Shown in pieces: positions 7,046 through 35,354 of a stretch of 64,000 bases of DNA. This stretch comes from an uncultured Eubacteriales bacterium. Lineage in GTDB: Bacteria > Bacillota > Clostridia > Christensenellales > Aristaeellaceae. The stretch spans positions 107,706-171,705 of the forward strand of contig CACWZP010000005.1 in NCBI GenBank assembly GCA_902765395.1, given 5' to 3'. Numbering within the stretch: position 1 is the first letter of the stretch; every line of letters starts with the position of its first letter. Both the position numbers and the translations under genes were made by a program. The notes under the pieces were generated by a model, which saw only the letters and a list, made by a program, of their open reading frames with translations, was not told where the DNA came from and ran no database searches.

Positions 7046-8626
7046 TCACAGCTGTTGTCTCTCATTCATAGATAAAGCGTTTTCACCAAGGATAAACTTG
7101 ACATTCCCGGCAATGACCCGCATTTGCTTTCGCTGCTCTGCCAGCAGGCGCAATGCCGCCCTCTGCTGGTCGCGCTGGCGGGACAGGCGAGACTTCTCCG
7201 CTTTCAATTCCTTCATCGACGGGAATGTTCCGTCAGGTGAAGCGGCCTTCAGATGGCTGACGGCATTTTCATACTCGTCGATCTCGGCCTTATGTGCAGT
7301 ACGAAAAGCGCCCTTGTCCCCAGCTGAGAGAAACTGCCGGTACAATGCCTTATGGGAAAGGTATAGTCCAGTATAGTGGATGCGTTCGTTTATCGCCGTC
7401 AGAGCGTTCTGCGTCTCGCGCAGATCCGCGGAGGCTTGCTTGTATTGTGCCTCCGCCTGATCTGCCGCTTCTGCCAGCTTGTCCACGGTTCCAATGCCAT
7501 GCTCCTGGATGTAGGCGATTGTCCGTGCCATCTCCTGCAAATTGGACAGGGCGACCTGCCGGGCGTAGGCGCGGCTCTGCTGTGCCTTGACGCAGGTTTG
7601 CAGATCGACCACCAGCCGAAGCTCGGAATGGATGAAGAAGATGCGCGGCATTCCCTGGAACTCTGGCCGTCGCTGTTCTTCCTCCTGCTGCTGAAAACCC
7701 GCGATGCGCTCCGCGATCTGTTCTCGTTCGTAGATTCTTCCAAGCATCCTGCCGCGAATGGGCTTCTCGCGGTCAGGGTGCTTGTAGGAGATCACTCCAC
7801 GCGAAAAGCGAACGGCGATGCCAAACTGTTCCCGCATGATGCGGATGAAGTCCTGCTCATCCTTCGTCATTTCTACGGCCCTGTCCACGGCCTGCCGGAG
7901 TTGCTCTTTTATCGTGCTGTACTTGGTGTGAACCGGCTCGTAGCCGTCCTCACGGATTCGCCGGTTCCTCTCGTCCATCTTCTGCTGTCCGCGCTGGCGT
8001 TCCCAATACTCACGATTGGTTACGAGTCTGTCCGTTTTTAGTGAGATGTCATTGGGATACAGGTGTTCCCTCTCACAAATCGCATTTAGCTTTTCGTGCA
8101 TCCTCATCGTCAGTTTGTCCGTGGGATGGTGCTTGAAGCCCGCCTTTGCATCTATCGGCTCCTCCATGAAATCCTGCCACGGCACATCCAGCTTTCGCAG
8201 GCTGTTCAGTACGATATGGCAATGGAGATTGCCGCTGTGATTATGGCCGTCCGTATGGGTCACGATCAAGGTTTGATGTCCGGCAAAGAAATGCTTTGCA
8301 AATTCCACGCCGATGGCCTGCACCTTCTCAGGGGTCAGTCCATGATCCGGCACGTCCCGCGGGTCGAAGCTGATGATGTAATGATGCGCCTTGCGGTCAT
8401 TCTTCCCCAGGTTCTTATGCCAAAGCCGGTTCAGCTCCGTACACTCTGTGTTGAACGTGAACGGGTCGCAGTTGAGTGCGTCCAATAGATACCCTTCCCG
8501 CAGGATCATGTCCCCGTTCTCATCGAGGATGGGCTTCTGCGTATGGCTGTCATGCTGGAACAGCAGATACCGCTGCATCTGCCCATAGTCACTATTTTTT
8601 ACGGCGATATGCTTCAGAATAGCCAC
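7046..8626 (-). CDS. MobP-type conjugative relaxase
   Basis: This 526-residue protein would nick the element at oriT and stay attached to the transferred strand. The HUH-type metal site is visible around residues 121-137 (VTHTDGHNHSGNLHCHIVLN), as in VirD2/MobP relaxases. Candidate catalytic tyrosines lie near the N-terminus (NSDYGQMQRY). The second half is helical and charged. A longer reading from 8656 exists, but the GTG at 8626 has a GGGAGGCG ribosome site at good spacing and gives the expected MAILKHIAVKNS start. It overlaps the end of mobC by 35 bases, so the two are translationally linked. It converges with the gene ending at 6986. Confidence 0.9.
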   Translation of the reverse strand: MAILKHIAVKNSDYGQMQRYLLFQHDSHTQKPILDENGDMILREGYLLDALNCDPFTFNTECTELNRLWHKNLGKNDRKAHHYIISFDPRDVPDHGLTPEKVQAIGVEFAKHFFAGHQTLIVTHTDGHNHSGNLHCHIVLNSLRKLDVPWQDFMEEPIDAKAGFKHHPTDKLTMRMHEKLNAICEREHLYPNDISLKTDRLVTNREYWERQRGQQKMDERNRRIREDGYEPVHTKYSTIKEQLRQAVDRAVEMTKDEQDFIRIMREQFGIAVRFSRGVISYKHPDREKPIRGRMLGRIYEREQIAERIAGFQQQEEEQRRPEFQGMPRIFFIHSELRLVVDLQTCVKAQQSRAYARQVALSNLQEMARTIAYIQEHGIGTVDKLAEAADQAEAQYKQASADLRETQNALTAINERIHYTGLYLSHKALYRQFLSAGDKGAFRTAHKAEIDEYENAVSHLKAASPDGTFPSMKELKAEKSRLSRQRDQQRAALRLLAEQRKQMRVIAGNVKFILGENALSMNERQQL

Positions 8627-8990
8627 GGAACTCGCCTCCCATCTTCTCAACCTCATATTTCATGGCGTACAACTCGGAGATGGCGCGCTGGGTGCGCTCG
8701 TACATCTCCCTGGAGCGAACGCCGCCGCCGTTGTAGTGGTGGGCGATCTGATTGAGGTTAGAGCCGATTTTCCCAAATTCGGCAATCAGCTTTTTCAGCA
8801 TGGGCACCTCGGCCACGATCTCCTGACGGACAACGACTTTTCCCTTGATTACCATGCGTCGGATATATTCGGACACGCTCAGGTCGGCGGCGCGGGCTGC
8901 CGCTTCAATCTTGTTGTAGGTAGCCTGATCGAACCTGACACCGACGAATCGTTCTTTCGGCGCGTCTGGCCGTGTATTCTTCTTCCTCAT
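8592..8990 (-). CDS. mobC: MobC-like mobilization accessory protein
   Basis: This 132-residue protein has an N-terminal ribbon-helix-helix DNA-binding part (FVGVRFDQATYNKIEAAARA) and the C-terminal MobC region with IGSNLNQIAHHYN. MobC proteins bind oriT and help the relaxase open the strands. The start has GAGGAGG just upstream. A perfect hairpin at 9001-9019 lies directly before the ribosome site. The gene is immediately upstream of the relaxase. Confidence 0.9.
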   Translation of the reverse strand: MRKKNTRPDAPKERFVGVRFDQATYNKIEAAARAADLSVSEYIRRMVIKGKVVVRQEIVAEVPMLKKLIAEFGKIGSNLNQIAHHYNGGGVRSREMYERTQRAISELYAMKYEVEKMGGEFRGYSEAYRRKK

Positions 8991-9368: not shown

Positions 9369-10220
9369 CTATTTGGCTACGCCCTCCAGGAGCCGCTTTG
9401 CCTCCGCGATATTCTGCTCGGCGGCCCGCTGGCGAATCTGCGTGTTGTTGATCCTGATAGGATAGCAGTGCGCCAGCACCCTGTCAAATATCCTGGCATG
9501 GGGAATGTCGCGTGGCTCTCGCAACTGCCCGATGCTCAGGTTTGTGGTGATGAGCATCGGTTTTCCGCTCTGGCACCGGCTGTCGATGACGCTGAAAACC
9601 TGCTCCACTGCGAAGCTGGAATCGTGTTCCACGCCGAGGTCGTCGATCACCAGCAGCCGGTAGCGGTTCAACTCGTCCAGGTAGGCGTTGCGATCCGTGC
9701 CCGCCATGCCCATCATGTAGTTCATGACCCGCGAGAAGTTGGTCATGTACACGGATACCCTCTGCTCCATCAGCGCGTTGGCGACACAAGCCGCGATGAA
9801 GGTCTTGCCAGTTCCGACATTGCCCCACAACAGCAGCCCCATCCCGCGGGCCTCCATGTCCGGGAAAAGCTCCACATATCGCTTCGCCCTGGCAATTTCA
9901 GGATTGTAGCCCTTGTCGTTATCAAAAGTGTACTCCAGCAATCGCCTGTCCCGGAAGCCGTCCCGCTTGAGGTGCTCGATTTCATCCGCTTTCCGCTTCG
10001 CCGCGCGCATGGCATCCTCCACGTCATGCTCTGCCCGCTTGCAATCGCACAGCACGGGCGGGCAGAATACAATGCCGCCGTCGCTCGTCCGGATCGCCGT
10101 CTGGCGTGGTGTGCGGCAGTTCCGGCAGTACACCAGCCCGTCCTGTTCATTCAAATACTCATCCTCCGCGAGCGTCCTGTCCCGGAACAGGTTTCCGAGA
10201 AGCTCCCGCATACTGTTCAC
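9369..10220 (-). CDS. DnaC/IstB-like AAA+ helicase loader
   Basis: This 283-residue ATPase probably loads the replicative helicase during replication of the excised or transferred element. A Cys-containing N-terminal part (VYCRNCRTPRQ and PVLCDCKRAE) may bind zinc. Walker A is LLWGNVGTGKTF and Walker B is RLLVIDDLGVE, with a sensor-type LITTNLS. The GTG start overlaps the stop of rep (GTGA), and AAGGAGGG lies upstream. The length and order fit DnaC homologues of ICEs and phages. Confidence 0.9.
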   Translation of the reverse strand: MNSMRELLGNLFRDRTLAEDEYLNEQDGLVYCRNCRTPRQTAIRTSDGGIVFCPPVLCDCKRAEHDVEDAMRAAKRKADEIEHLKRDGFRDRRLLEYTFDNDKGYNPEIARAKRYVELFPDMEARGMGLLLWGNVGTGKTFIAACVANALMEQRVSVYMTNFSRVMNYMMGMAGTDRNAYLDELNRYRLLVIDDLGVEHDSSFAVEQVFSVIDSRCQSGKPMLITTNLSIGQLREPRDIPHARIFDRVLAHCYPIRINNTQIRQRAAEQNIAEAKRLLEGVAK

Positions 10221-11014
10221 AATGATTCACCCTCCTTGTACTCGTAGCTGACCGCCGCACAGCTGTCCTTTGACCTCCGCGCCCAGCTGCGCAGGGCGGC
10301 CTCGTAATTCTGATAGGTCTTGCCAGTGGAGGCCAGGTAGCACGACATATCATCAAGCAAAGGCTGGATATGCGGGTAGTCGCGGCGCAGCCGGGCGTAT
10401 CCCTCGTCTGAGAGAAACACATTTTCAAACTGCCCGTAGCCGCGGATACTCTTGCTCCCTGGCTTTTGCTCTGTCGTTTTTACTCCTTCATTTTTACTAC
10501 CTGGTAATGGATTACCGCCGTCGCCGGTAATCTGCTTCCGCCCTGGCCGGTAATCCGCTACCGCCGCGGGCGGTAATGCGTTACCGTCATCGGCGGTAAT
10601 GGGATACCGCTGGCGGCGGTCATCCGTTACCGGCGTGGGCGGTAGTTCATTACCGCCCACGTCCTGCGTTGGTTTCGGCCCGTCTCGCGGCACCTTCACA
10701 TAGATGAAATCTGCCTTGCCAATGCCCTGGTGTATCTTCTCGATCAGTCCCTTCTCCGCAAGGGCGTTGAGCGAGAGCCGGATGGTCTTTTCGCTGCGGT
10801 GGAGCGCGGCGGCCAGGTCTTCAACTGTAAAGATGATAACGGCCCGGCCATCCTTGTCCGTCCATCCGTCGCGGTTGAGACTGAGCCTCGCCCGGTCCAG
10901 CAGAAGCACATACACGAAGATGGAAACCGGCAGCAGATCCGTGTCAAACAATAATCGGGGGAATATCAGATAGGGCGGCATCTGTGTATCCCTGGTCAGG
11001 TAATCGCAGGTCAT
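10217..11014 (-). CDS. RepA-type replication initiator with iteron-bearing linker
   Basis: This 265-residue protein has an N-terminal winged-helix initiator domain (PPYLIFPRLLFDTDLLPVSI, then HRSEKTIRLSLNALAEKGLI). After it comes a variable Pro/Asp/Gly linker, then a C-terminal helical region (YQNYEAALRSWARR) like that of other RepA/DnaD-type initiators. The linker is encoded by seven 23-bp DNA repeats. It overlaps dnaC by 4 bases and the upstream small gene by 4 bases, so the rep, segregation and loader genes form one coupled operon. It likely starts replication of the circular form. Confidence 0.85.
   Translation of the reverse strand: MTCDYLTRDTQMPPYLIFPRLLFDTDLLPVSIFVYVLLLDRARLSLNRDGWTDKDGRAVIIFTVEDLAAALHRSEKTIRLSLNALAEKGLIEKIHQGIGKADFIYVKVPRDGPKPTQDVGGNELPPTPVTDDRRQRYPITADDGNALPPAAVADYRPGRKQITGDGGNPLPGSKNEGVKTTEQKPGSKSIRGYGQFENVFLSDEGYARLRRDYPHIQPLLDDMSCYLASTGKTYQNYEAALRSWARRSKDSCAAVSYEYKEGESL
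10503..10655. repeat. Seven 23-bp iterons inside the rep gene, candidate replication origin
   Basis: GGTAAT or a one-base variant begins at 10503, 10526, 10549, 10572, 10595, 10618 (GGTCAT) and 10641 (GGTAGT), exactly 23 bases apart. Each is followed after two bases by a TTACCG-like half, giving the partial palindrome GGTAATNNRTTACCG plus 8 less conserved bases. Because 23 is not a multiple of three, the repeats run through all codon positions, so DNA sequence rather than protein sequence is being kept. Initiator-binding iterons within the rep gene are known in several plasmid families. Confidence 0.85.
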
Positions 11015-11403
11015 TCACCAAGATAATCCCAGGGGATTTCATCGTCGGGGATGATGTCAGGCTTCGCGTCCTGCATGGACGGTTCCGCTTCGCCCTCGGC
11101 AGTCGGCGCACGCGCCAGCGCCGCCGTGCCGCCCTGCACGGCAAGCCCGGAGAGAAACGCGGGCAGCGCCAGCTTCATCATCTGCTCCGTCATGCCGATG
11201 ATTTTCTCGGCGTATTGCCTTCCGATCTCTTCCTCCGTCCGATCATCCCTGATTCCATTTGCCATATACGCGACCAGGGCTTCCGAAAAGGATTCCGAAT
11301 ACGACCAGCCCTTTTCCTTCTGGAGTCGCTGCAACGCTGCCCATGCCTGCCGGTGTTTCTCCTTGTCGAGATTGAAGCGCACATGGAAGATTCTCGCGTT
11401 CAC
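11011..11403 (-). CDS. Small partner of the ParM-like protein (ParR/StbB-like candidate)
   Basis: This 130-residue protein opens with MNARIFHVRFNLDKEKHRQAW, which resembles the ribbon-helix-helix start of ParR/StbB-type DNA-binding partners, and has an acidic tail (PDIIPDDEIPWDYLGE). Its start overlaps the stop of the ParM-like gene by 4 bases. By position and size it should bind the centromere-like DNA and the actin filament. No direct sequence proof of the family is visible. Confidence 0.6.
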   Translation of the reverse strand: MNARIFHVRFNLDKEKHRQAWAALQRLQKEKGWSYSESFSEALVAYMANGIRDDRTEEEIGRQYAEKIIGMTEQMMKLALPAFLSGLAVQGGTAALARAPTAEGEAEPSMQDAKPDIIPDDEIPWDYLGE

Positions 11404-12329
11404 GACTTATCCCTTCTTCTCAGGCTGGAGCTGGCCAGCGTCTCGTACCCCTTCGCCGTCGCGCACAGATCGTCGATGATGGTGACGCGGGTCTCGTCGT
11501 ATTCCCCGAAGTGGCGCACCAGGCAGCCCCCGCCGCCGACGATCATCAGCCGCACCAGCGCCGGATCGTATTCATACCTGCGCAGGGCGGCGAAGATGTC
11601 GGCGGTGTACTTCCTCGCCACGGTAATGATGCAGTCGAGGTACTTCCCGGCGATGTCGGCGGTGCCGGTGCGCAGCACCTGTTCCACGATGGAATCGTCG
11701 ATCTTCAGACCGAAGTTGTCCATGACGGCGTTCCTGGCCTGGATCATGCACTGGTTCACGCCCAGCTTCTCAGTCCAGGAGCGATCCTCCATCGGCTTGC
11801 GCTCAACGATGTACAGCACGTTCATGGTGCCGTTGCCGATGTCGGCCAACAGATTCGTGCCCTTCAAGCTGCCGAAGGTGTTGACCACGGCGGCGTAGCC
11901 CTGGGGGTACACGCTGCAACCCACAAAGCGAACGCGATAGTCCTTCCCGTTGTAGCGATACTCCACCTTCTCATTGCGCAACAGGTATTCCCGGAAGGAT
12001 TCCCGCTGCTTGCGTACCCACGTCAGCGGCAGCCCCGCGGCGAGATGCACGTTCGCCTCCCGCATACCTGCTCTGTTCAGCTCACAGGCCACGCCCATCA
12101 GCGTCAGCAGATAGAAATCCTCGTCCATCGCCTTGTTGACGATGAACTCCTTGTGACCCTCGCCGATGCGGTAATACTTGCCGACGTACTCCAGGATGTT
12201 GCCGGAGAATACCGGCTCGGTGTCGTATTCCGTGACGGCCGTCGGCGTGATCGTGTTCGCCGTCTTGATGTTCCCGTAGCCGTGGTCGATGCCGATCACG
12301 GCAATCTTCTTATCGTTCAGATAGATCAT
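11400..12329 (-). CDS. ParM/StbA-like plasmid segregation actin
   Basis: This 309-residue protein has the actin-fold signatures: phosphate 1 loop VIGIDHGYGNIKTAN near the N-terminus, phosphate 2 loop LLADIGNGTMNVLYI in the middle, and LMIVGGGGCL as the adenosine-side motif. ParM-type filaments push plasmid copies apart before division. Its presence in an ICE suggests a stage as a replicating circle that needs active segregation. It leads a block of overlapping genes with the small partner, rep and dnaC. Confidence 0.85.
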   Translation of the reverse strand: MIYLNDKKIAVIGIDHGYGNIKTANTITPTAVTEYDTEPVFSGNILEYVGKYYRIGEGHKEFIVNKAMDEDFYLLTLMGVACELNRAGMREANVHLAAGLPLTWVRKQRESFREYLLRNEKVEYRYNGKDYRVRFVGCSVYPQGYAAVVNTFGSLKGTNLLADIGNGTMNVLYIVERKPMEDRSWTEKLGVNQCMIQARNAVMDNFGLKIDDSIVEQVLRTGTADIAGKYLDCIITVARKYTADIFAALRRYEYDPALVRLMIVGGGGCLVRHFGEYDETRVTIIDDLCATAKGYETLASSSLRRRDKS

Positions 12330-13077: not shown

Positions 13078-13476
13078 TCATGTAGTCGTGTCGTTCTTCT
13101 CTCGGCGTTTCCGCCTGGATTCCCAATAGGCGTCCATAATGGCTTGAGCCATCGCGTCTTTCTGAGCATCGGACAAATAATCGCCCGACATGAGTGAAAC
13201 GGCCTGTTGCGTCAGCAGCCGCGCCTGTGTTTCATGCGAGTGATCCGCACGGATAAACGCAAAGGAATCCAAGGAAGGTATGCCATTTATCAGGGCATCA
13301 ACAGAAACGTCCAGTGCATCCGCGAGTTGTTTCAACAGTTTCTCTGTCCGTGGAAAGGTGGTGCCTGCTTCATAACCAAATATGGTGCGCGGAGAGACTC
13401 CAGCCAATTTCGCAAGGGCATTTTGCGATAGGTGCTTCTTTTTGCGAAGTTCTCGCACCTGTTCTCCAAACGTCAT
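13078..13476 (-). CDS. XRE-family HTH transcriptional regulator
   Basis: The first 60 residues form a Cro/C1-type helix-turn-helix (LRKKKHLSQNALAKLAGVSP, then RTIFGYEAGTTFPRTEKL). The rest is a helical regulatory part of about 70 residues. It is the first gene of the minus-strand arm and has a strong promoter with TTGCG-containing repeats directly upstream, so it probably represses itself and controls the switch between maintenance and transfer. Confidence 0.85.
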   Translation of the reverse strand: MTFGEQVRELRKKKHLSQNALAKLAGVSPRTIFGYEAGTTFPRTEKLLKQLADALDVSVDALINGIPSLDSFAFIRADHSHETQARLLTQQAVSLMSGDYLSDAQKDAMAQAIMDAYWESRRKRREKNDTTT

Positions 13477-14043: not shown

Positions 14044-14562
14044 ATGAAAGAAGATAATGGTTCGCTTTGTGGGGAAAACCACGACGATAAGCAAAACAAT
14101 GATCGCTACTCTATAGTGGATGCTGTTGGGAAGCAACATGTTTTCATTGCCGGAAAGGATGGCGTCACAGAGGAATGGATAGCCAGACTGAGGCACGATG
14201 AAAATGAGCTGCGCACATCCGACTTCAAATTCTACTACCTGTGGAACGGTAAGAACTACGTGCGTGTGGTTTATCGCTCGGACGATATAAGCCCGGCGGA
14301 ATTGGAGCACTATTCGACCATGCACGACAAATCTGCGGATGTTGAGCAGCTGATCATAGAGAGGGAAGCGGAGACTATTTCCCACACTCAATATCTGGCT
14401 GCGATGGCATCTTTGACCAAGAAACAGAAGGAGCTGATCTACAAAATGTTTGTATTGGGCATGTCAAAGGCTGATATTGCCCGCGAAGAAGGGGTCAAGC
14501 CGACCTCCATACAGTCACGCTGGGAGTGCATTTGCAAAAAGTTTGTAAAGTTCTTCGAGTAG
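14044..14562 (+). CDS. Sigma-70 region 4-like HTH protein
   Basis: The C-terminal 60 or so residues of this 172-residue protein (LTKKQKELIYKMFVLGMS, then KADIAREEGVKPTSIQSRWE) form a sigma region 4-type helix-turn-helix. The first 110 residues are unlike sigma region 2, so it is more likely a regulator than a full sigma factor. GAAAGGA precedes the ATG. As the first plus-strand gene after the control region, it may activate the transfer arm. Confidence 0.65.
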   Translation: MKEDNGSLCGENHDDKQNNDRYSIVDAVGKQHVFIAGKDGVTEEWIARLRHDENELRTSDFKFYYLWNGKNYVRVVYRSDDISPAELEHYSTMHDKSADVEQLIIEREAETISHTQYLAAMASLTKKQKELIYKMFVLGMSKADIAREEGVKPTSIQSRWECICKKFVKFFE

Positions 14563-14578
14563 AGACCGTATTTTAGGG

Positions 14579-14640
14579 CTGTTTTTGCCTTATGTGGTGA
14601 AGGAGCCATCTCATTTCATTTGAAAGCGAGGCAAAAACAG
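14579..14640 (+). promoter_or_regulatory. 12-bp inverted repeat around a translation start region
   Basis: CTGTTTTTGCCT (14579-14590) and AGGCAAAAACAG (14629-14640) are perfect inverse complements 38 bases apart. The loop contains AAGGAGCC and an alternative TTG start at 14620, and the second arm ends 3 bases before the ATG at 14644. Folding could control translation of the next gene. Confidence 0.5.
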
Positions 14641-14643
14641 TCC

Positions 14644-15024
14644 ATGAAAAACATCCGCAATGTATTCTTCATGCCCAGGGTGAAGCGGCAATTCGAGAAG
14701 GCGAAGGCCGCCCACCCTGAGCTTGGCAAACACATCAACGACCTGCGCAGCGAGATAGGCTACTATCTCGCCGCGCACAAGGCCGCCGGTATTCGCTTCG
14801 ACAGCAGGCACCTGGAGATCATCTATAGCGATGGCGTTACCGTCGTTCTGCGCCAGACGCTGGGCATTTGGATCATCACCAGGATCGTCCTGACCCTTCC
14901 TGTAAAGGAATATCGGCCGGTCTTTGGCTTCAAGCGCGTCAGGGAAGGGGCCCGCGAAGCGGTCAGGCGCGTGTTCATGCACTGGCGGTACTCATTCGAT
15001 GAACCGTCCTTTGCCCTCGCTTAG
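14644..15024 (+). CDS. Unknown basic 126-residue protein
   Basis: I do not recognise this family. The protein starts MKNIRNVFFMPRVKRQFEKA, is rich in Arg/Lys, has a short hydrophobic stretch (LGIWIITRIVLTL) and ends with DEPSFALA. A TTG start at 14620 is an alternative. It lies between the sigma-like gene and the polymerase-like gene on the same strand. Confidence 0.55.
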   Translation: MKNIRNVFFMPRVKRQFEKAKAAHPELGKHINDLRSEIGYYLAAHKAAGIRFDSRHLEIIYSDGVTVVLRQTLGIWIITRIVLTLPVKEYRPVFGFKRVREGAREAVRRVFMHWRYSFDEPSFALA

Positions 15025-15069
15025 AGGGACGCGGCCCCTTCAAAACTACATAGATATGAGGTGACGACC

Positions 15070-16860
15070 ATGAATCACTTGTACATCGACATCGAGACCA
15101 CCAGCGGCGCGAACCTGTCGAGCGCGGGCGCGTACCGCTATGCCGAGGACGATCATTTCCGCGTGCTTCTGTTCGGGTACGCCGCGGATAACGACCCCAT
15201 TCACATCGTCAATCTGGAGCAGGGCGAGCGCATCCCCGCGGAGGTCATCGAAGCCCTGGCGGACCCCGCCGTGACAAAGCTCGCCTACGACGCGCAGTTT
15301 GAGCGCGTGTGCCTGTCCCGGCATCTGGAGCTGCCGAGGAACGTGTACCTCTGCCCGGAACACTGGCGCTGCATGAAGGTATGGGCATCCTATCGCGGCC
15401 TGCCCTCCAGCATGAAGAAGATCGCCTCCGCGCTGGGCGTGACTATCGCTGCCGACCCGGAGATACAGCGCGTGCTGCGGGAAAAGTACCTCCATGATCT
15501 GCGCAAGGGCGGCGACCAGGCTCCCGAACGCTGGGAGAAAATGCCCGTGGTGCTTCAAACGCTCGGCCAATGCGTCCGGCAGAACCTCACGGCGGAGCGG
15601 GCGCTGTATGAGTACCTGCGGAGGTATCCCCTGCCGGAGACGGAGTGGGCGCACTACTGCATGGATCAGCGCATCAATGACCGCGGCGTAAAGCTGGACA
15701 GGAAGCTGGTCGGCAGCGCCATCAACTGCGATGATTTCTTTCGCGGCGGCATGGCGCGGCGCTTCAAGGAGATCACCGGCATCTGCGCGGATTCTCCGGC
15801 CCGGTTTCGTCAATGGCTGGCTGCCAACGGAATGCGGGTGGATTCTGTGTCAAAGGAGGCTGTGTCGCGGCTGCGCAAGACCGCGCCGGTGGAGCTGGAC
15901 GAGGCGCTCAGCCTGTGGGAGCTGCTTTCCCGCACGGAAACCCGCAAATATGTCGCGCTGGGCGAGGCGGTGTGCAATGACGGGCGGCTTCGTGGCCTGT
16001 TCCGTTTCTGCGGGCATCCCCAGGGCCGGTTCAGCTATCCGCTGATCCAGCTGGACAACCTGCCCGTCTGCCGTTCGTCCGAGCTTTCCGAGCTGCGGGA
16101 CATCGTTCGTGCCGGGGAGTTCAACAGCCTGGACAGTCAGTGCGCGTCTGTGACCGACATCCTGACCCAGCTTTTCGTCACATCTTTCATCCCGCGCCGG
16201 AAGTGCCGCCTGCTGGTGCTTGAATACCCCGCGCTGGAGCAACGGATTCTGGATTGGCTGGTTCGGGATGATTGGGAGGCTCACGCCAGCAGCAGGAACT
16301 ATGTGCGGGACGAGCAGCCCCGCGTATCCGAGTATTTCCATGACGATCCCCGCGTGACGCGCCTGTGCCTGGACATCGACAACGCCATCCGGCGCTGCCT
16401 GACCCATCCCGCCGTCGCCAAGACTCACGGGCTGCTGTTCAGCGGCTACAACGGAACCCTGTGCATCGAGCTTCCCTCCGGGCGGGCGCTGTGCTATCGG
16501 GAGCCGGAGATCATGTTCGGCGTGGACGGCTTCAGCATCATCATGTACGCCGGGATGAACAAGGACGGGAAATGGGACATCATGCAGGGCAACGGCGCGA
16601 AGTTCCTGCGGGACATTGTGCAGGGGCTGGCACGGGATGTGCTGCTGGACGCGATGCGGCGGCTCACGGACGCTAACTATCCCGTCATCCTGCACCTGGC
16701 AAACAAGGTGGTCGTGGAGAGTGAGGAACCCGCCGCGCTCATGGCCATCAGCGCCGTCATGGAGAAGCCGCCCCATTGGGCGAAGGAAATGAAGCTGACC
16801 ACCCAGGGCTACGCCTGCAACCGCTATCTGGAGAAGAAGCAGCGCCCCTCGCGCCATTGA
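15070..16860 (+). CDS. Degenerate phage-type family A DNA polymerase (likely catalytically dead)
   Basis: The 596-residue protein follows phage-type DNA polymerase I along its length. It has an exonuclease-like start (LYIDIETTSGANLSSAGAY), a middle region ending RFSYPLIQLDNLP, then palm elements. Key residues differ from the family as I know it. Motif A reads VLEYPALEQRI, where a DFSAIEAR-like sequence with Asp is expected (Glu at about residue 385). The fingers segment with the RQxGK-type motif B is missing. Motif C reads HLANKVV instead of HVHDEVV (about residues 542-548). In the exonuclease, the third motif reads CVRQNL instead of a YxxQDV form. The ATG at 15070 follows TGAGGTGA. Fold kept and chemistry lost suggests a structural or regulatory job in element replication. 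Confidence 0.75.
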   Translation: MNHLYIDIETTSGANLSSAGAYRYAEDDHFRVLLFGYAADNDPIHIVNLEQGERIPAEVIEALADPAVTKLAYDAQFERVCLSRHLELPRNVYLCPEHWRCMKVWASYRGLPSSMKKIASALGVTIAADPEIQRVLREKYLHDLRKGGDQAPERWEKMPVVLQTLGQCVRQNLTAERALYEYLRRYPLPETEWAHYCMDQRINDRGVKLDRKLVGSAINCDDFFRGGMARRFKEITGICADSPARFRQWLAANGMRVDSVSKEAVSRLRKTAPVELDEALSLWELLSRTETRKYVALGEAVCNDGRLRGLFRFCGHPQGRFSYPLIQLDNLPVCRSSELSELRDIVRAGEFNSLDSQCASVTDILTQLFVTSFIPRRKCRLLVLEYPALEQRILDWLVRDDWEAHASSRNYVRDEQPRVSEYFHDDPRVTRLCLDIDNAIRRCLTHPAVAKTHGLLFSGYNGTLCIELPSGRALCYREPEIMFGVDGFSIIMYAGMNKDGKWDIMQGNGAKFLRDIVQGLARDVLLDAMRRLTDANYPVILHLANKVVVESEEPAALMAISAVMEKPPHWAKEMKLTTQGYACNRYLEKKQRPSRH

Positions 16861-16871
16861 GGAGGCCGGGC

Positions 16872-17351
16872 ATGAAGTACACCAACCATCCCCGCCCTCC
16901 TATTCGGCGTCTGTCGGGCGAGACCCTCGTCAGGATCGCGGACAGGCTGGCCGGAATGTTGAACCTGACTGCTGTCGATCCCGTGGTTATACAAGCGGCG
17001 GTCATCACCGAGGGCGGCACCACGGAGATCGTCGGAGAGGGCGGCAATGAACAGATCGCCTGGATACGCGCGGACAGCATCTGTTATCTGCGCCTCCGGG
17101 ACTTTCGATTGCGCTACGCCTACGCCACGCGGGAGGCTGTCGAGCGAGACCGTCAATTTGCCGAGCATTTCCACGATTGCTGTCACATCAACCTGCCTGA
17201 TGTGATTACCGACGCCGCCAGAGAGGTTCTTCTGGAAATCGGCGATGCGGACTATTGGGTCGCTCCGGCCTTCAGAAATATGCTGACAGAGGAGGAGCGC
17301 CGATATGCGAGTGGGTGTCATGTGGAAAGTCCTGCGCCGGGCGATGTATGA
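16872..17351 (+). CDS. Unknown protein following the polymerase-like gene
   Basis: This 159-residue protein starts at ATG 16872 after GGAGG, 11 bases beyond the polymerase stop; the frame open further upstream is not used. It has a mixed sequence with CYLRLRDFRLRYAYATREAV and a His/Cys cluster (FAEHFHDCCHINL). No family is recognised. Its end overlaps the next gene by 47 bases, which suggests coupled translation. Confidence 0.6.
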   Translation: MKYTNHPRPPIRRLSGETLVRIADRLAGMLNLTAVDPVVIQAAVITEGGTTEIVGEGGNEQIAWIRADSICYLRLRDFRLRYAYATREAVERDRQFAEHFHDCCHINLPDVITDAAREVLLEIGDADYWVAPAFRNMLTEEERRYASGCHVESPAPGDV

Positions 17352-17610
17352 AACAGAAGGGTTTTACCTGCGTCTGTCGGATGACGCCAGTCTCGCGCAG
17401 GAGGTGCTGCTGTTTTTCCCGCATGGCGTGGTGGCGCTGCTCGTCATCATCTGGCCCGGCGCAAAGTTGGAGCCGAAACAGGTCAGGCGCATTGAACGCT
17501 TCCGTGACTACGCCATCCCGGTCTACTATACCGGCAGTCCGAAAGGAATCTACAGCGCGGTGGTCGGCGCGGCGCAGAGCATCGACCTGGGCGTGAACTA
17601 TTATCCCTGA
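17305..17610 (+). CDS. Unknown 101-residue protein
   Basis: It starts MRVGVMWKVLRRAMYETEGF, with GAGGAGG upstream inside the preceding gene. A hydrophobic strand-like stretch (VVALLVIIWPG) is visible. It ends IDLGVNYYP. No family is recognised. Confidence 0.6.
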   Translation: MRVGVMWKVLRRAMYETEGFYLRLSDDASLAQEVLLFFPHGVVALLVIIWPGAKLEPKQVRRIERFRDYAIPVYYTGSPKGIYSAVVGAAQSIDLGVNYYP

Positions 17611-17849: not shown

Positions 17850-20800
17850 ATGAAACACTATACCCATAAGCTGACGGCGCTGCTGCTGGCGGCGCTGATC
17901 ATGGTTTCTCCCGTTGCTCAGCTTGCCCGCGCGGAGGAGGCTGTCTACCACACCGAAACCAAGTACCCGCTGCTGGCCGATGTGCGCGACCAGCTGGACG
18001 AGGATGAAATCGTCACCGCTTATGATGTCGTTATCGACATGGGCGATTATTTCAATCCCGCCGATGTGTCCGGGTTCAAGGTGGAGAATACCAACCAGTC
18101 TACCGATAAGGTTGATGTCAGTTTCTTCTCCGCTCATGCGACGGACGGCACGGCGTTTTCGTCCGATATGCCCGGCAGCTACTTTGCCTATTACGTCGCA
18201 AAACCCGTCAGCGGGCATCCGGCCTATGAGATCAGCCGGAGGATCACGGTCAACGCAGTGGAGGAACCTGCTGTTCCCGTGGTGCCTGAGACCGTCGAGG
18301 CCTTCCAAGAAGACGAGTCTGCCGACGAAGATTCGGAGGATGACCCATATGAAGAATCGGAAATTAATGATTCCGAGGAAGCTGCCTTCGAGGATGAAGG
18401 TGAACCCGAAGAAGAATACGACGATGCCGAGGAATTTCCCCAGGAGGGTGATGTTTCCGAGGAAACTGATTCCGAGGGAACCCTTTCCGATTGGGAGGAA
18501 GAATCGGACGAAGACGATGACGCCGACCTCGGAGACGATGAATACGCCGGAGAATACGATGATGACGAATGTTCCGACGAAGATTTGACCTCAGGGGATT
18601 GGGACGAAGCCGATGATGACTTCGACGTTGAGGATTATGACGGCACAGATCCCGACGAAGAGTATTATGACGATCCCAAAGAGGATGACTTCGACGATGA
18701 GGACGAAAAGGAATTCATCGATGAATCCGATGTCGAAGATGAATCTGTAGACGATCCTGCTGGCGAGGGCGACGCCTCGGATGATGAGGACGAGGACGGC
18801 GAGGAAGCCGAAACCACGCCGGAGCCGTCAGATGATCCCACCTTCGATATGCCGCAGATCTACGATGAGCCTATCGAAACCATTGCACCCGTCGATAGTC
18901 CTGAACCCACCGAGGTTATCGTGGAGGAGACCTCCGTCGGTATTCCCGAGGACGATGAAGATGTCCCTGGCGATGACGGCGACGATGCTGTCGGTGATGA
19001 CAGTGATGAAGAACTCGATGGTGACGATGCCGCCAGCGACGATGGTGATGACGGTGAAACCACAGAGGGTACCGATGAGGAACCTTCCCCGGAAGAAGCG
19101 GTGGAGCCCTCCGAGGCATTCACCCTGCCTGTGGATCAGATTCTCACGACGGTTTTGGAACCGACGCTTTCCCTGGCTTCCGTTGACGGCGGTGAGGGAG
19201 ATGACGACGCCACCGAGGAAGAGGACGACATGGAGGAGATTGACCCGGACAACATCGTGTTGGAGGGCGACGCGAAGATGGTTCGCGGCAAGAAGGTCTC
19301 CTATCCCAGCAGCCTCGGAAGCTGGAGCACCTTTAAGTACACCGTCAACGGCAAGATGGCCTACTGTCTGGAATCCTCCAAGACCTCTCCGAAGGGCGGT
19401 TCCTTCGCTCAGGAAATACTGGACAGCAATCCCAACCTGACCAAGGCGCTGTACTACGGCTATGGCGGGCCGGAGGATTTGAGCGCCAGCTTCTTCCCGG
19501 ACTATTCCGCGAACGTGCGCTATATCCTGACGCATATCGCCGCCAGCTATTTCTTCACCGGCAGCTATTCCAGCGCGACGAAGGGCTGCTCGTCCAGCGG
19601 CTTGAAAAAATACCGTGTGCAGGAATGGATTGATTATATTGCCGGCCTGGAGGACCCGCCCTCGCCTGGTATCAGCCTGAGCGATAAGTCGCTTGAGGTG
19701 ACGGGCATCGCCAATGGCGTGCAGACCACCTCCAGCACCACGCTGAATGCCGACCATCGCAACAGCATTACACTTGCGCTACCGGATAATGTGACCTTTC
19801 ATAACGAAAACACCGGCGAGACGCAAACGGGCGGCACGGTGACCATTGGAGGCGGTACGACCTTTCACTTCTCCGCGCCGACCTCCGTCAGCGGGACCTG
19901 GAAAACCGGTGACATGAAGGGCATGATCGCCATGATCTGGAAGGTGCTGGTGGTCAAGACAGGCACCAAGACGCAGAAGCTGGGCAGCTACGCCTCCGAG
20001 GAATACGGCGGTTCCGTCCACTTCACTGTCACCTGGAAGAGCGAGGTCACGCTGAACATCGTGAAGGCCGATGCCGCCAATACGGACGTGCATCTGGCGG
20101 GCGCGGTCATCGGCGTGTACTCCGATGCCGACTGCACCAATCAGCTGACCACCATGACTACCGGCGCGGACGGTTCCGCCTCCTGCACCATCCCGCGGGA
20201 ATACGCCCGCCTGTACCTGAAGGAGCTGCAAGCGCCCACGGGCTACCGCCTGAGCAAGACGGTCTTCACCGTGGACATGCCAGATGGGGATTCCGTCACG
20301 GCGCTCATAAAGAACGATCAGCAGCGGGCCGGTCTCAAGATCACCAAGAGGGGTGAGGTGCTGACCGGCGCGGACGTGACCGATGCCGGCGTTCGCTTCA
20401 TCTATGAGACCCGCAAGCTCTCCGGCGCGGTGTACCGCGTCACCGCCGAGAGCGCCATCTACACTCCGGACGGCGCGCTGATGTACCAGAAGGGCGACGT
20501 GGTCGCGGACGCCCTGACCACCAACGACAGCGGCGAGGTCATGCTGAACAATGTGCCGCTTGGCAGTTATGTGGTGGAGGAGACGCAGGCTCCTGCGGGC
20601 TTTGTCCTGTCGGGCGAGAAGCACACCGTAAAGCTGGAATACGCGGGCCAGGACGCGGAAGTGGCCTTCAACGAGACCACCTTCACCAATGAGCGCCAGA
20701 AGGCTGCCGTCACCATCCACAAGCAGGACGGCGAGACGAAGAATCCCTTGGCGGGCGGTACGTTTGCCCTTTACGCGGGAAGCGCCATCGTCAGCTACAA

Positions 20801-23800
20801 GGGCGACAACCTCGTTGCAGCGGGAACCCTGATCGAGACGGTTGTGACCGGCGCGGACGGCAGCGCCGCCTTTGCCGCCGACCTGCCTGTGGGCTTCTGC
20901 TATGAGATACGGGAAGTTGCGCCGCCAGCGGGCTACACCTTCGGCGTGGAGAAGTATGAGTTCTCGTTCAGCGCCGCCGCGCAGACGCAGGCCGTGTCTG
21001 AGTTTGGCTACACCTTCTCCAATGACCGCATCACGGCCACGCTCAGTCTCCACAAGAAGGACGCGGAAACCGGTAATGAGCAGGGCGACGCCCAGCTTGC
21101 CGGAGCCGTTTACGCGCTGTATGCCCGCGAAGCCGTCGTCCACCCGGACGGCAAGACCGGCACGCTCTATGAGAAAGACGCGCTGGTGACGACCATGACC
21201 ACGGATGCCGTAGGCGACGCGAAGGCCGAGAACCTGCCGCTGGGCAAGTATTATCTCAAGGAGATCACGCCCTCCGCGGGCTATCTGCTGGATGCCAATG
21301 AGTACGACGTGGACTGCACGAAGTACGATCCCGGCAAGTACCTGATCCTGGTGGAAGCCACCGTGAAGGAGCAGGTCATCAAGCAGCCCTTCCAGGTCAT
21401 CAAGGCCGCGAACAACGGCAAGACCGACGCCGATCTCATCAAAGGCGCGGGCTTTACCGCGTGGCTGGTGTCCGACCTGATGAAGAACGCGGACGGGAGC
21501 TACAACTTCTCCAATGCGGAGCCTGTGGCGCTCGGCGCGAACGGTGAAACGGAAAGCTTCACCGACGAGAAGGGACACGCCACTTCCGTCCCGCTGCCCT
21601 TTGGCACTTACATCGTGCGTGAGACCACGACGCCCAAGAATTACGCGCCCGTGGACGATTTCATCGTCACCATCAAGGAGAACAACCCCACGAAACCCCA
21701 GGTGTGGCGTGTGCTGCTGGACGAGGAGTTCGCCGCGAAGCTGAAAATCTACAAGGCGGACAGCGCCACGGGACGCACGATCTTGCTGCCCGGCGCGGAG
21801 TTCTCCATCTACGATGTGGACAACGACACCTTTGTGGAGCAGGTCACGACCTACCCGCAGACCGTGAAGCACACCACCTTCACCACCGATGAAAGCGGCA
21901 CCCTGACGCTGCCGGAAACGCTGCGTCCCGGCCACTACCGCATCACGGAGATCAACGCGCCGTTCGGCTATACGCTGAACCGCGCCGAAGCGGACGTGAC
22001 CATCAGCGACGAGGCGCTGCATCAGGTGGACGCGGTATCCGGCGACCTGGTGATCGAGGTCACGATGCACGACGCGCCCGCACGGGGCCGCGTCACCGTG
22101 TACAAAGAGGGCGAAACGCTGTCCCACTATGAGGACGGGCAGTTCATCTACGAGGTGCAGCGCCTGCCCGGCGCGACCTTCGAGGTTATCGCCGCCGAGG
22201 ACATCTATACCGCGGACAACCAGAGGGACGCGAACGGCAACCGCTATCTGGAATACGCCGCCGGAACCGTGGTCGCCATGCTGACCACCGACGAGAACGG
22301 CGAGGCCCGTACCGAGGATCTGCCCCTGGGCACCTACAAGGTGATTGAGAAGAAAGCGCCTGTCGGCTATGTCCTCAAAGCCGAGCCGGTCACCGTCACG
22401 TTGGCATACGCCGATCAGGAGACGGAGATCGTGGTGGAGGCCGCGACGGTGGCAGACGCCCGCCAAAAGGTCAGCCTGGTCGTGGAAAAGAAGGCAAAGG
22501 ATAAGGACATCAGGCTGCCCGGCGCGACGCTGGGACTTTACGCGGGCGAGGACATCCGTGCGCATGATACCGTCATCGTGCCTGCCGGGACCTGCATCGC
22601 CACCGCTGTGTCCGACGAGACCGGCAGCGTGGCCTTTGACATTGACCTGCCCTTGGGCAAGTACCTCGTCAACGAGCTTCAGGCTCCGGTGGGCTACGTT
22701 CTGTCGGATGAAGTGGTCGAGTTGGAGGCGGCCTATCAGGGGCAGGACGTGAAGGTGGTCTCCGTCACCGGCATCTATGAGAACCAGTCGACCCGCATGG
22801 TCATCAGCAAGGCCGACGCCACAACCGGCGTGGAGCTGGACGGCGCGAAGCTGACGCTGTTGGACGCAAGCGGGAAGGAGATGGATTCCTGGACTTCCGT
22901 GGCGGGCGAACCTCACCTGATCGAAGGGCTGGCCATCGGCGCGACCTACACGCTGCGCGAGGACATCGCCCCGTATGGCTACCTGATCTCCAACACAGTC
23001 AAGTTCACCGTGGGCGACACCGCTGATATTCAGAAGGTCGTTATGAAGGACGAGGTGCCCACGGGCAAGATCATCATCAACAAGTCCGGCGAGTTTCTGA
23101 GCGACGTGTCCGTGCTTGACAGCGCCACCGGCTGGATTGGCAACACCTTCTCCTTCATCACCGGCGGCCTGAAAGACGTGACCTTCGGCGTGTATGCCTT
23201 TGACGATATCAAGCAGGCGGACGGCGTTTCGCCGGACTACTACGCCGCGGGGACGCAGATCGGCACCATCACCACGGACAGCACCGGCGTGGCGACGATG
23301 GAGAACCTGCCCCTGGGACGCTACATGGTGAAGGAGATCGCCACGCAGGACGGCTATGTGCTGGACGACCAGGCGCGGTTGATCGACCTGACCTACCGCG
23401 ATTCCAAAACGCCCGTCGTGACCTATTCCGAGGCGTGGCAGAACGAGCGCCAGCGGGCGCGGGTGACCGTCGTGAAAAAGCAAAAGGACGGCGACAGGCT
23501 GTTGGAGGGCGCGGTGTTCGGCCTGTACAGCGCCGAGGACATCACCGGGGAGAACGGAAAGGTCATTTTGGCGAAGGACACTTTGATCGAGCAGCGCGCC
23601 ACCGATTCCAACGGCAAGCTGACCTTTGAGGTCGATCTGCCGGTCGGCTTTGACTATACCATCAGGGAGATTACCCCGCCCGCGGGCTACGCCTCCGATC
23701 CCAATGCGCAGAGCTTTACCTTTGACGGCAGCAATACCGATGTCGCCGTCGTGGAGATGGAGTACGCCTTTAAGGATATTCCTACCCTTGTGGACGTAAC

Positions 23801-24461
23801 CAAATCCAGCCTCACCACCGGCGAGGAGCTGGAAGGCGCAAGCCTTCAGGTGACGGACGAGGACGGCAACGTGATCGACAGTTGGGTTTCCGGGACAGAG
23901 CCGCACCGCATCACCGGCCTGGTCGTGGACAAGACTTACACCCTGACGGAGACGCTGCCCGCGTCGGGCTACGTCACCGCCGAGAGCATCGAGTTCACGA
24001 TCTCAGACATCGGCGAGGTGCAGCCCGTGGAGATGAAGGACGATGTGACGAAGGTGAAGATTTCCAAGACCGACCTGACCGGGAAGAAGGAGCTGGAAGG
24101 CGCGACGCTGACTATTCTGGAGTCCGAGGGCAAGGTCGTGGAGACCTGGACTTCTACCACCGAGCCGCATTACATCGAGATGCTGCCCATCGGGAAGTAC
24201 ACGCTGCGCGAGGAAACCGCGCCGTCCGGCTACCTGGTCGCGGAGGATGTGGAGTTTGAGGTCAAGGATACCGGCGAGATCCAGACCGTTACCATGAAGG
24301 ACGCGCAGGAAAACCCGGAGCAGCCCGGAACCCCCATGCCGGATACGCCCAAGACCGGCGACATGAACAACCCGCTGCTGTGGGGCGGCATCGGCGTGGT
24401 CGCCCTGCTGGGGCTGATGACCGCTGTGCTGGTGATGCGGAAGAATCGCAGGAAGTTCTGA
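17850..24461 (+). CDS. Giant SpaA/Cna_B-repeat adhesin with sortase signal
   Basis: This 2203-residue surface protein has a signal peptide (residues 1-29), a small beta domain, an Asp/Glu-rich low-complexity region (about 150-440), a thioester-type domain (about 480-600) and about thirteen SpaA-like beta modules. The modules recur as a KxD-type start, then LxGAxFxLY, then ExxAPxGY, and many could form internal Lys-Asn isopeptide bonds. The end is a sorting signal: TPKTG (about 2166-2170), a hydrophobic helix and RKNRRKF. In the thioester domain the Cys is present (AYCLES, residue 506), but the usual Gln motif reads THIAAS (His at about 562). The class B sortase gene at 31997 could anchor it. 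Likely role: contact with recipient cells or host surfaces. Confidence 0.85.
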   Translation: MKHYTHKLTALLLAALIMVSPVAQLARAEEAVYHTETKYPLLADVRDQLDEDEIVTAYDVVIDMGDYFNPADVSGFKVENTNQSTDKVDVSFFSAHATDGTAFSSDMPGSYFAYYVAKPVSGHPAYEISRRITVNAVEEPAVPVVPETVEAFQEDESADEDSEDDPYEESEINDSEEAAFEDEGEPEEEYDDAEEFPQEGDVSEETDSEGTLSDWEEESDEDDDADLGDDEYAGEYDDDECSDEDLTSGDWDEADDDFDVEDYDGTDPDEEYYDDPKEDDFDDEDEKEFIDESDVEDESVDDPAGEGDASDDEDEDGEEAETTPEPSDDPTFDMPQIYDEPIETIAPVDSPEPTEVIVEETSVGIPEDDEDVPGDDGDDAVGDDSDEELDGDDAASDDGDDGETTEGTDEEPSPEEAVEPSEAFTLPVDQILTTVLEPTLSLASVDGGEGDDDATEEEDDMEEIDPDNIVLEGDAKMVRGKKVSYPSSLGSWSTFKYTVNGKMAYCLESSKTSPKGGSFAQEILDSNPNLTKALYYGYGGPEDLSASFFPDYSANVRYILTHIAASYFFTGSYSSATKGCSSSGLKKYRVQEWIDYIAGLEDPPSPGISLSDKSLEVTGIANGVQTTSSTTLNADHRNSITLALPDNVTFHNENTGETQTGGTVTIGGGTTFHFSAPTSVSGTWKTGDMKGMIAMIWKVLVVKTGTKTQKLGSYASEEYGGSVHFTVTWKSEVTLNIVKADAANTDVHLAGAVIGVYSDADCTNQLTTMTTGADGSASCTIPREYARLYLKELQAPTGYRLSKTVFTVDMPDGDSVTALIKNDQQRAGLKITKRGEVLTGADVTDAGVRFIYETRKLSGAVYRVTAESAIYTPDGALMYQKGDVVADALTTNDSGEVMLNNVPLGSYVVEETQAPAGFVLSGEKHTVKLEYAGQDAEVAFNETTFTNERQKAAVTIHKQDGETKNPLAGGTFALYAGSAIVSYKGDNLVAAGTLIETVVTGADGSAAFAADLPVGFCYEIREVAPPAGYTFGVEKYEFSFSAAAQTQAVSEFGYTFSNDRITATLSLHKKDAETGNEQGDAQLAGAVYALYAREAVVHPDGKTGTLYEKDALVTTMTTDAVGDAKAENLPLGKYYLKEITPSAGYLLDANEYDVDCTKYDPGKYLILVEATVKEQVIKQPFQVIKAANNGKTDADLIKGAGFTAWLVSDLMKNADGSYNFSNAEPVALGANGETESFTDEKGHATSVPLPFGTYIVRETTTPKNYAPVDDFIVTIKENNPTKPQVWRVLLDEEFAAKLKIYKADSATGRTILLPGAEFSIYDVDNDTFVEQVTTYPQTVKHTTFTTDESGTLTLPETLRPGHYRITEINAPFGYTLNRAEADVTISDEALHQVDAVSGDLVIEVTMHDAPARGRVTVYKEGETLSHYEDGQFIYEVQRLPGATFEVIAAEDIYTADNQRDANGNRYLEYAAGTVVAMLTTDENGEARTEDLPLGTYKVIEKKAPVGYVLKAEPVTVTLAYADQETEIVVEAATVADARQKVSLVVEKKAKDKDIRLPGATLGLYAGEDIRAHDTVIVPAGTCIATAVSDETGSVAFDIDLPLGKYLVNELQAPVGYVLSDEVVELEAAYQGQDVKVVSVTGIYENQSTRMVISKADATTGVELDGAKLTLLDASGKEMDSWTSVAGEPHLIEGLAIGATYTLREDIAPYGYLISNTVKFTVGDTADIQKVVMKDEVPTGKIIINKSGEFLSDVSVLDSATGWIGNTFSFITGGLKDVTFGVYAFDDIKQADGVSPDYYAAGTQIGTITTDSTGVATMENLPLGRYMVKEIATQDGYVLDDQARLIDLTYRDSKTPVVTYSEAWQNERQRARVTVVKKQKDGDRLLEGAVFGLYSAEDITGENGKVILAKDTLIEQRATDSNGKLTFEVDLPVGFDYTIREITPPAGYASDPNAQSFTFDGSNTDVAVVEMEYAFKDIPTLVDVTKSSLTTGEELEGASLQVTDEDGNVIDSWVSGTEPHRITGLVVDKTYTLTETLPASGYVTAESIEFTISDIGEVQPVEMKDDVTKVKISKTDLTGKKELEGATLTILESEGKVVETWTSTTEPHYIEMLPIGKYTLREETAPSGYLVAEDVEFEVKDTGEIQTVTMKDAQENPEQPGTPMPDTPKTGDMNNPLLWGGIGVVALLGLMTAVLVMRKNRRKF

Positions 24462-25349: not shown

Positions 25350-25490
25350 TTGAAAACCATCCTCATCATCATCGGCGTCGCCCTCGTCCTGCTGATGGCC
25401 ATGATTGGCTATGCCTGTATCATCGTCGGCAGTGACGCGGAGCGCCAAATGGAAGCATGGGAGCGTGAGAGATATGCAGGAAGAGATTAA
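25350..25490 (+). CDS. Small membrane protein at the head of the transfer operon
   Basis: This 46-residue protein starts with TTG after GAAGGTGAG. It has one membrane segment (TILIIIGVALVLLMAMIGYA) and a charged tail (AERQMEAWERERYAGRD). It overlaps the pcfB-like gene by 17 bases. Short single-helix proteins often precede the coupling-protein genes in these elements. Confidence 0.6.
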   Translation: MKTILIIIGVALVLLMAMIGYACIIVGSDAERQMEAWERERYAGRD

Positions 25491-25989
25491 CCACAAGACG
25501 ATTACCGTGTATATCAGGGGCGCGAAGGTCACGGCGCAGACACTGAAAGCGGCGCTGCGCGCAATACTCCGCGCCAGAGAGAAGCACAAGCAGAACGTCC
25601 AGCGGCGGGAGACGCAGTATGAGCGCGAGGACGATGTGGCCGTCAATCGGGGCAAGCAGTCCCTGCGGGACTTGCAGGACGAGGGCAGCGAGCTGTCCAA
25701 CATCGAGATCACCGACGAGAACATCAAGTCCTTTGAACGCTATGCCCGGAAGTACGGCATCGACTACGCGCTGAAAAAGGACAAGGCGGCAGATTCGCCC
25801 CGCTATTTCGTGTTCTTCCGCGCGCGGGACGAAAAGACGATGGAAGCGGCCTTCAAGGAGTATGCCGAGTACACCACCAAAGAGAAAAAGCCCTCCGTGA
25901 AGAAGAAGCTCGCCGTCGCCGTGAAGCGCGCCATGCCCCAACGGGCGCGGGAGCGCGAGAAGAAGAAAGAAAGGACGGAATCCCGTTGA
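25474..25989 (+). CDS. PcfB-like (DUF3801) transfer accessory protein
   Basis: The 171-residue product starts MQEEINHKTITVYIRGAKVT, typical of PcfB/DUF3801 proteins. A helical basic part follows, with FERYARKYGIDYALKKDKA and a Lys/Arg-rich tail. PcfB works with the coupling protein PcfC in pCF10-type transfer. It overlaps the coupling-protein start by 4 bases. Confidence 0.8.
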   Translation: MQEEINHKTITVYIRGAKVTAQTLKAALRAILRAREKHKQNVQRRETQYEREDDVAVNRGKQSLRDLQDEGSELSNIEITDENIKSFERYARKYGIDYALKKDKAADSPRYFVFFRARDEKTMEAAFKEYAEYTTKEKKPSVKKKLAVAVKRAMPQRAREREKKKERTESR

Positions 25990-27854: not shown

Positions 27855-27894
27855 CCTCCCTCTTTCATTCCAACAAAGAAAGGAAAATGTGAAT

Positions 27895-28110: not shown

Positions 28111-28140
28111 GCTCACAACGACTATGGGAGGAACTGACCC

Positions 28141-29013: not shown

Positions 29014-29036
29014 TAAAACAATGAAAGGAGTCCATT

Positions 29037-32854: not shown

Positions 32855-32870
32855 AAGGAAGTGAAATGGC

Positions 32871-35321: not shown

Positions 35322-35354
35322 GCGGCATCGAATATGCCGGAAAGAGAGGAAAAC

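Follow-up and report, generated by a model that had tools for sequence, protein, structure and literature searches.

What is a DNA polymerase gene doing in a conjugative element when its product has lost both catalytic aspartates of the polymerase site? The question is raised by a gene of 596 codons in the window, the whole stretch of 64,000 nucleotides analysed here from an uncultured Eubacteriales bacterium. To our knowledge, few dead DNA polymerases kept by selection have been described. The product, called pseudo-polymerase in the following, was compared with its relatives, its near and distant copies were collected, and its neighbourhood was examined.

A phage-type polymerase homologue and its catalytic motifs

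The product of the gene is a phage-type family-A DNA polymerase homologue. It matched three DNA polymerase families of PHROG (phrog_17, 10285 and 7766; E 1.5e-40 to 5.5e-30), its similarity was significant over both exonuclease and palm, and it showed 33-42% identity to phage-type family-A polymerases. Every Pfam family stayed below its cut-off in scans of the 596-aa product, and NCBIfam gave no match at E 0.01. The AlphaFold2 model of the protein (56 rows) had a mean pLDDT of 84.4 and a pTM of 0.85, with residues 403-422 below pLDDT 50. In Foldseek searches with this model, Pol I of phage G20c was top in the PDB (E 1.2e-13) with Bst and Klenow entries next, and phage polymerases were top in BFVD (E 1.3e-33). 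A GAGGTGA site lies ahead of the ATG start codon and the same site is found before the two nearest copies (L033 and L034). The positions of the gene, its motifs and its neighbours are collected in Table 1.

Table 1. Features of the window around the pseudo-polymerase gene and in the rest of the element
Feature	Coordinates	Strand	Remark
Relaxase of conjugative element	7046-8656	-	
IstB/DnaC-like ATPase, RepA_N protein, actin-like (ParM-type) protein	9369-12329	-	
Divergent HTH regulator	13078-13476	-	
Sigma-70 region 4-like gene	14044-14562	+	First gene of a likely operon (operon inferred from spacing)
g134, partner gene	14620-15024	+	Relatives lie upstream of active-type polymerase in phage-type replication modules
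Pseudo-polymerase gene	15070-16860	+	596 aa; start at ATG 15070, GTG at 15061 also open, common end at 16860
Exonuclease motif I, Asp7 and Glu9	15088-15096	+	Intact in window copy, lost in L138
Exonuclease motif II, DAQFE vs NAxFE	15289-15303	+	Asn74 to Asp, Glu78 kept
Exonuclease motif III, CVRQNL vs YNxRDV	15571-15588	+	Tyr (168 to C) and Asp (172 to N) lost
Motif A, EYPALEQR	16222-16245	+	Catalytic Asp to Glu385
Short low-confidence linker replacing fingers with motif B	16276-16347	+	From alignment and model
Motif C, ANK vs HDE	16699-16707	+	Residues 544-546
159-aa gene, no known family	16872-17351	+	In L036 (about 60%); none in L037, L138
101-aa gene, no known family	17305-17610	+	97% in L036; none in L037, L138
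2203-aa ORF, repetitive sorted surface protein-like	17850-24461		By eye only
Transfer module: DUF3801, coupling protein, TrbL-like, TraG-type ATPase, sortase, NlpC/P60, CD1107-like	25405-35996	+	
Tyrosine integrase	49046-50413	+	

The initial annotation had given the protein a full polymerase I layout. Exonuclease, thumb and palm were all recovered, but the fingers are missing and the layout is not full. Its reading of the polymerase site held in the alignment to relatives: glutamate stands in place of the motif A aspartate, ANK in place of the HDE of motif C (ENK in the L034 copy), and no fingers or motif B are found between about residues 403 and 426. An intact pair of palm aspartates, looked for as counter-evidence, was absent from the same alignment. 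The protein thus has neither the motif A aspartate and motif C Asp-Glu of an active family-A polymerase nor its fingers with motif B (O helix). Both aspartates were present in all the 56 aligned relatives, which were chosen by homology and not by motif (26 from family genomes, 8 from the order or class and 22 viral), and HDE was found within the last 130 residues in 98 of the 98 full-length viral relatives, that is, the proteins of at most 750 aa out of 135 viral loci. Taq and other Pol I structures aligned to the relatives at motifs A, B and C.

In the exonuclease the earlier claim, that metal ligands are changed in every active site, went too far. One of the four carboxylates is lost (Asn172) while Asp7, Glu9 and Glu78 are present, so that motif I is intact and the four carboxylates of motifs I-III expected of an active DEDD exonuclease are incomplete by sequence. 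The third motif is altered as had been noticed, and relatives read YNxRDV there, not the expected YxxQDV.

Both aspartates and the fingers are lost in all four pseudo-polymerase copies described below. The same changes occur at four loci in three genome assemblies, which rules out a sequence or assembly error; the catalytic-site changes are real, neither chance nor artefact. The idea that the fingers are encoded elsewhere was rejected, as the genome of the window has only one other, distant polymerase locus. With neither catalytic aspartate nor the nucleotide-binding fingers left, DNA synthesis explains the gene poorly, and the prediction that the protein is dead as a polymerase is well supported.

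Near copies, a distant dead homologue and selection

Two near copies, 92% (L033) and about 82% (L034) identical, were found in one genome, the uncultured Clostridiales RUG13574 (G216). Pairwise dN/dS among the three near copies was 0.095, 0.194 and 0.144 by NG86 and 0.067, 0.109 and 0.074 by YN00. For the C-terminal palm part it was 0.065, 0.142 and 0.125, the lowest among the three parts of the protein in two of three pairs; in the exception, L033-L034, the middle part had 0.120. The pseudo-polymerase falls within the range of other element genes by NG86 (ParM 0.066-0.098; coupling protein 0.108 and RepA_N 0.162, one pair each), and the DnaC-like gene had 0.080-0.107, g134 0.176-0.391, the 159-aa gene 0.312 and the 101-aa gene 0.073. 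A partial copy, L035 (123 residues, 98%), was excluded from this comparison. Its contig (1-3930, titled Porphyromonadaceae) begins inside the near-identical copy and its match to the window, L033 and L034 ends after base 361, so it is either a misassembly, a wrong bin or a rearranged copy.

A fourth copy, L138, was reached through ParM and g134 searches in a genome of another genus of the same family (G073). Its polymerase has 563 aa and is about 31% identical to that of the window by blastp (33% in the four-row alignment), and its contig encodes a relaxase, a ParM and a surface protein which are 54%, 65% and 57% identical to their window counterparts. The gene order is sigma-like gene, g134, polymerase, one further gene and surface protein, beyond which coupling protein, TrbL, TraG ATPase and NlpC/P60 are situated. 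L138 is altered in every motif. It has RIAF for DIET in exonuclease motif I, Asn to Asp and Glu to Thr in motif II, REV for RDV in motif III, Glu for Asp in motif A and PNG in motif C, and its loss of the fingers is larger than in the window copy.

The two lineages carry the same two replacements of the polymerase aspartates (D to E in motif A, D to N in motif C). Among the 33 columns conserved at at least 90% in relatives and lost in both dead lineages, 11 show the same replacement, against a shuffle mean of 2.6; a value of 11 was reached once in 100,000 shuffles. The 60-row tree, built without catalytic and fingers columns, joined the four pseudo-polymerase copies with an SH-aLRT of 99 (98 without eight far rows), with L138 on a very long branch (4.13). 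A tree joining the three near copies with one viral row was not rejected (AU p 0.085), and two separate inactivations are possible. The common gene order and the replacements in common speak for one inactivation rather than two; it probably happened once, long ago.

No stop or frameshift was found inside the four full copies. Disrupted catalytic motifs are thus common to a clade under selection, which consists of four full copies and for which the AU test leaves the other tree open. The earlier view that the frame is intact and not decaying was borne out by dN/dS of 0.10-0.19, unbroken frames and the conserved ribosome site. The proposal of a retained but inactive polymerase is likewise well supported from sequence comparison, because dN/dS is low in the three near copies and the distant homologue L138, at the same place, is equally dead. 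Scaffold, clamp and decoy, the tasks suggested for it earlier, are candidate roles.

Such genes are rare in the genomes searched. Polymerase matches were present in 66 of 308 genomes of the family, and matches running unbroken across the fingers at four loci in three of them (the window, two in G216 and one in G073), both counts among the matches listed. Apart from that of the window (G000), no unbroken match was seen in the genomes with a match from the order (18/297), class (36/291) and phylum (18/169), these sets being sampled and overlapping and their partial matches at contig ends not classifiable. Dead copies as diverged as L138 are inconspicuous by score; it was the short frame and the neighbouring g134 that gave L138 away. 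Partial matches at 48-50% were seen in G119, G108 and G283. Within the genus, 13 of 28 genomes match this polymerase family, mostly with the fingers-containing type. Among viral contigs, P0001 or the L138 protein as query found no relative, and the three-copy profile found 57 distant polymerases. Polymerase frames of about 960-1030 aa were observed at L020, L029, G274:C6, G283:C87 and G244:C57. About 1.1 kb rather than about 0.2 kb separates the two halves of the match in L020 and L029, pointing to an intein or some other insertion within the fingers region.

The conjugative element and the phage-type replication module

Relaxase, coupling protein, type IV secretion ATPase and integrase occur in one stretch of the window, as in an integrative conjugative element, which we take to be Tn1549-like. 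The right side of the element also encodes a protein of 2800 aa that matches helicases and methylases, and a PAPS-reductase-domain protein (47520-48569) lies near the integrase. The pair of g134 and pseudo-polymerase is present in all four full copies. In the stretches compared of three ParM-related elements (L139-L141, 66-68% identity) no pseudo-polymerase was found. Promoter-like sites numbered 4 against 2.8 in shuffles and terminator-like sites 1 against 4.0, which gave no support.

The related elements differ among themselves. The sigma-like gene is only 43-47% identical among three of them (window 14044-14562, L036 8711-9241, L037 14435-14980) and the gene next to it is 83-94% identical, as if the sigma-like gene had been exchanged. 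The RepA_N match of L036 (1155-5964) is split by about 4 kb, probably by insertion into the gene. In L138 (11938-12986, G073) there is no RepA_N match and the DnaC-like match covers just 57 residues, whereas both genes are present in the window. The window's genome carries two further ParM-type genes (47-48% identical; G000:C1:198345-199241 and G000:C7:65402-66310), so it probably harbours further related elements.

The g134 gene links the element to another kind of locus. Matches to it occur in 15 of 300 family genomes, including that of the window, G216 and G073. At four other loci (G240, G146, G050 and G244) it is followed by S-adenosylmethionine synthetase, DUF2800, an Enc34-type ssDNA-binding protein and the polymerase. 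The G146 locus adds a VapE-type helicase and a phage-type integrase that resembles DNA invertases; since no phage structural gene was present among the ten proteins scanned there, the locus may belong to a prophage or to some other phage-like element. A single IMG/VR contig, L239, holds g134, DUF2800, ssDNA-binding protein and polymerase in this order. The IMG/VR scan gave no other viral relative of g134, and phage records gave no match. The gene after the dead polymerase of G073 is nucleoside 2-deoxyribosyltransferase-like (also a DUF7768 match), and a gene of this type lies at most 1 kb after the polymerase in 51 of the 72 viral loci which were long enough (8 of 80 were too short), one of the two baits coming from one such locus.

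DUF2800 and ssDNA-binding genes were not found between g134 and the pseudo-polymerase in the element. Judged by the module order in relatives, two members of a phage-type replication segment sit in the element, and the genes that lie between them elsewhere are missing. The comparison supports descent of the gene from a phage-type replicative family-A polymerase, kept with g134 in one conjugative element lineage.

Possible roles and comparison with known systems

Phage-polymerase origin, single inactivation and a non-catalytic role, taken jointly, form an account which we consider rather probable. Catalysis would have been lost early and probably once, through D to E in motif A, D to N in motif C and deletion of the fingers, and selection would since then have kept the inactivated protein intact. 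Function by binding and not by chemistry is the reading we favour and infer: the body of exonuclease, thumb and palm would hold DNA or a replication protein without extending DNA, and DNA or replication proteins are the most likely partners. Arg320, Gln327, Asn330, Gln518 and Arg522 are kept in all four copies and presumably lie in the DNA path of Pol I (Klenow Arg668, Asn678, Gln849). Net charge over the thumb and first palm part is +3 to +6 in the pseudo-polymerase copies against a mean of -2.5 (sd 3.7) in relatives. Retained DNA-track residues and a more basic thumb together point to binding. New aspartates at 329, 395 and 515 are conserved in all four copies and could repel DNA; we take 329 and 515 to be positions of minor-groove contacts, and the new acids there disfavour ordinary, unchanged primer-template binding. 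Polymerases predicted to be dead can still be active, as for archaeal PolB2 in the available part of PMC8764526, which argues against a non-catalytic role.

Interference with phage replication is, tentatively, the leading specific model. The pseudo-polymerase, expressed from an operon behind the divergent repressor-like gene of the element, would compete with the active polymerases of related phages for the phage ssDNA-binding protein, primase-helicase or primer-template, and would slow their replication. It is placed slightly ahead of a role in replication of the element because the parts kept belong to a phage-type replisome, because polymerases of this family, mostly with fingers, are common among the genomes of the genus, and because the G073 stretch has no RepA_N match and a DnaC-like fragment only. 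Searches of five window proteins against PADLOC models gave no match at E 0.01 and that of the L138 polymerase to RTasPolA (E 0.0037, 14 bits) is too weak; thus no known anti-phage defence system was recognised. A bolder form, which we hold to be doubtful, is that the element has co-opted a phage replicase as a constantly present dominant-negative inhibitor which poisons the replisomes of related phages or elements. The inhibitor would be a fingerless body without catalytic metal ligands, co-expressed with another protein of the same phage module, and the conserved new acids round the former active site would form a refitted binding surface.

A structural or regulatory part in the element's own replication or maintenance is possible. 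The protein might mark or protect primer ends, or link initiation proteins to the host replisome. It is found at the same place, behind regulatory genes, in all four full copies of the element lineage, and the RepA_N, DnaC-like and ParM-type genes indicate that the window element may replicate on its own. Against this, the gene is absent from the compared stretches of the elements with 66-68% identical ParM, and a link to RepA_N or DnaC-like proteins cannot be general, because G073 and L036 lack intact matches.

Residual enzyme activity is unlikely. It would consist of weak cutting or trimming of DNA by the exonuclease, or of a new metal site in the palm formed by the new acids. The three near copies do have three of the four exonuclease carboxylates, Asp329, Asp395, Asp515 and Glu385 are conserved in all four, and PolB2 is a precedent for activity in a polymerase earlier called inactive. 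L138, however, is without exonuclease motif I and the motif II acid, so what the lineage conserves is not nuclease activity, and no copy has the nucleotide-binding fingers.

We give as little credit to a task outside replication for g134 and the pseudo-polymerase as a pair, for example one in which the polymerase body holds or steers a RelE/ParE-like protein. Both genes occur together in all four full copies, and in Foldseek every one of the top seven hits to the g134 model is a ParE or RelE toxin. The model is weak, however (pLDDT 63.4, pTM 0.57, 4 sequences; helix-helix-three-strand-helix layout), the best E is 0.088 with none at or below 0.001, and family scans of g134 gave no match. A decaying relic of a captured phage module with its frame still unbroken is very improbable: the loss of catalytic residues, the missing DUF2800 and ssDNA-binding genes and the long L138 branch would suit it, but the low dN/dS contradicts decay, two lineages only about 31% identical are free of stops and frameshifts, and the ribosome site is conserved.

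The pseudo-polymerase can be set beside several known systems. Phage-type family-A polymerases (PHROG 17, 10285, 7766) share exonuclease, thumb, palm and the g134 neighbour with it, and the G073 copy also shares the nucleoside 2-deoxyribosyltransferase-like neighbour. Unlike them, the pseudo-polymerase is without catalytic aspartates and fingers, has no DUF2800 or ssDNA-binding gene beside it, and resides in a conjugative element. With Tn1549-like elements the element has in common relaxase, coupling protein, TrbL-like protein, TraG ATPase, NlpC/P60, CD1107-like protein, the giant helicase/methylase protein and integrase; the related L139-L141, in contrast, have no such polymerase in the stretches compared.

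The literature search, in which coverage of subscription journals was sparse, found no inactive family-A polymerase of a conjugative element, and the available part of a paper on polyvalent proteins (PMC5512222) names no dead family-A polymerase. The inactivated polymerases which the search did find are of family B, and the following comparisons are drawn from the accessible parts of the papers. Archaeal PolB2 is a conserved clade with disrupted polymerase and exonuclease motifs, like the present one, for which a structural role was proposed (PMC2527604) before it was shown to synthesise DNA (PMC8764526); it is cellular and of family B, while the window protein is additionally without fingers. 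The C-terminal module of Pol epsilon is a dead polymerase-exonuclease kept by selection (PMC2669801), but it is of family B and part of a larger active eukaryotic enzyme. Poxvirus F12, a dead family-B polymerase possibly of phage origin with a role in virion morphogenesis (PMC4304020), resembles the present case in that a viral or mobile genome retains a dead polymerase for another task, and differs from it in family and in that task. If the bolder form above were true, mobile elements would be fighting each other in a new way, by a dominant-negative replicase, and the gene may represent a novel form of conflict of conjugative elements with phages. One of these family-B classes turned out to be active. 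The active relatives, module partners and two divergent dead lineages of the pseudo-polymerase make the role of a catalysis-free polymerase body testable.
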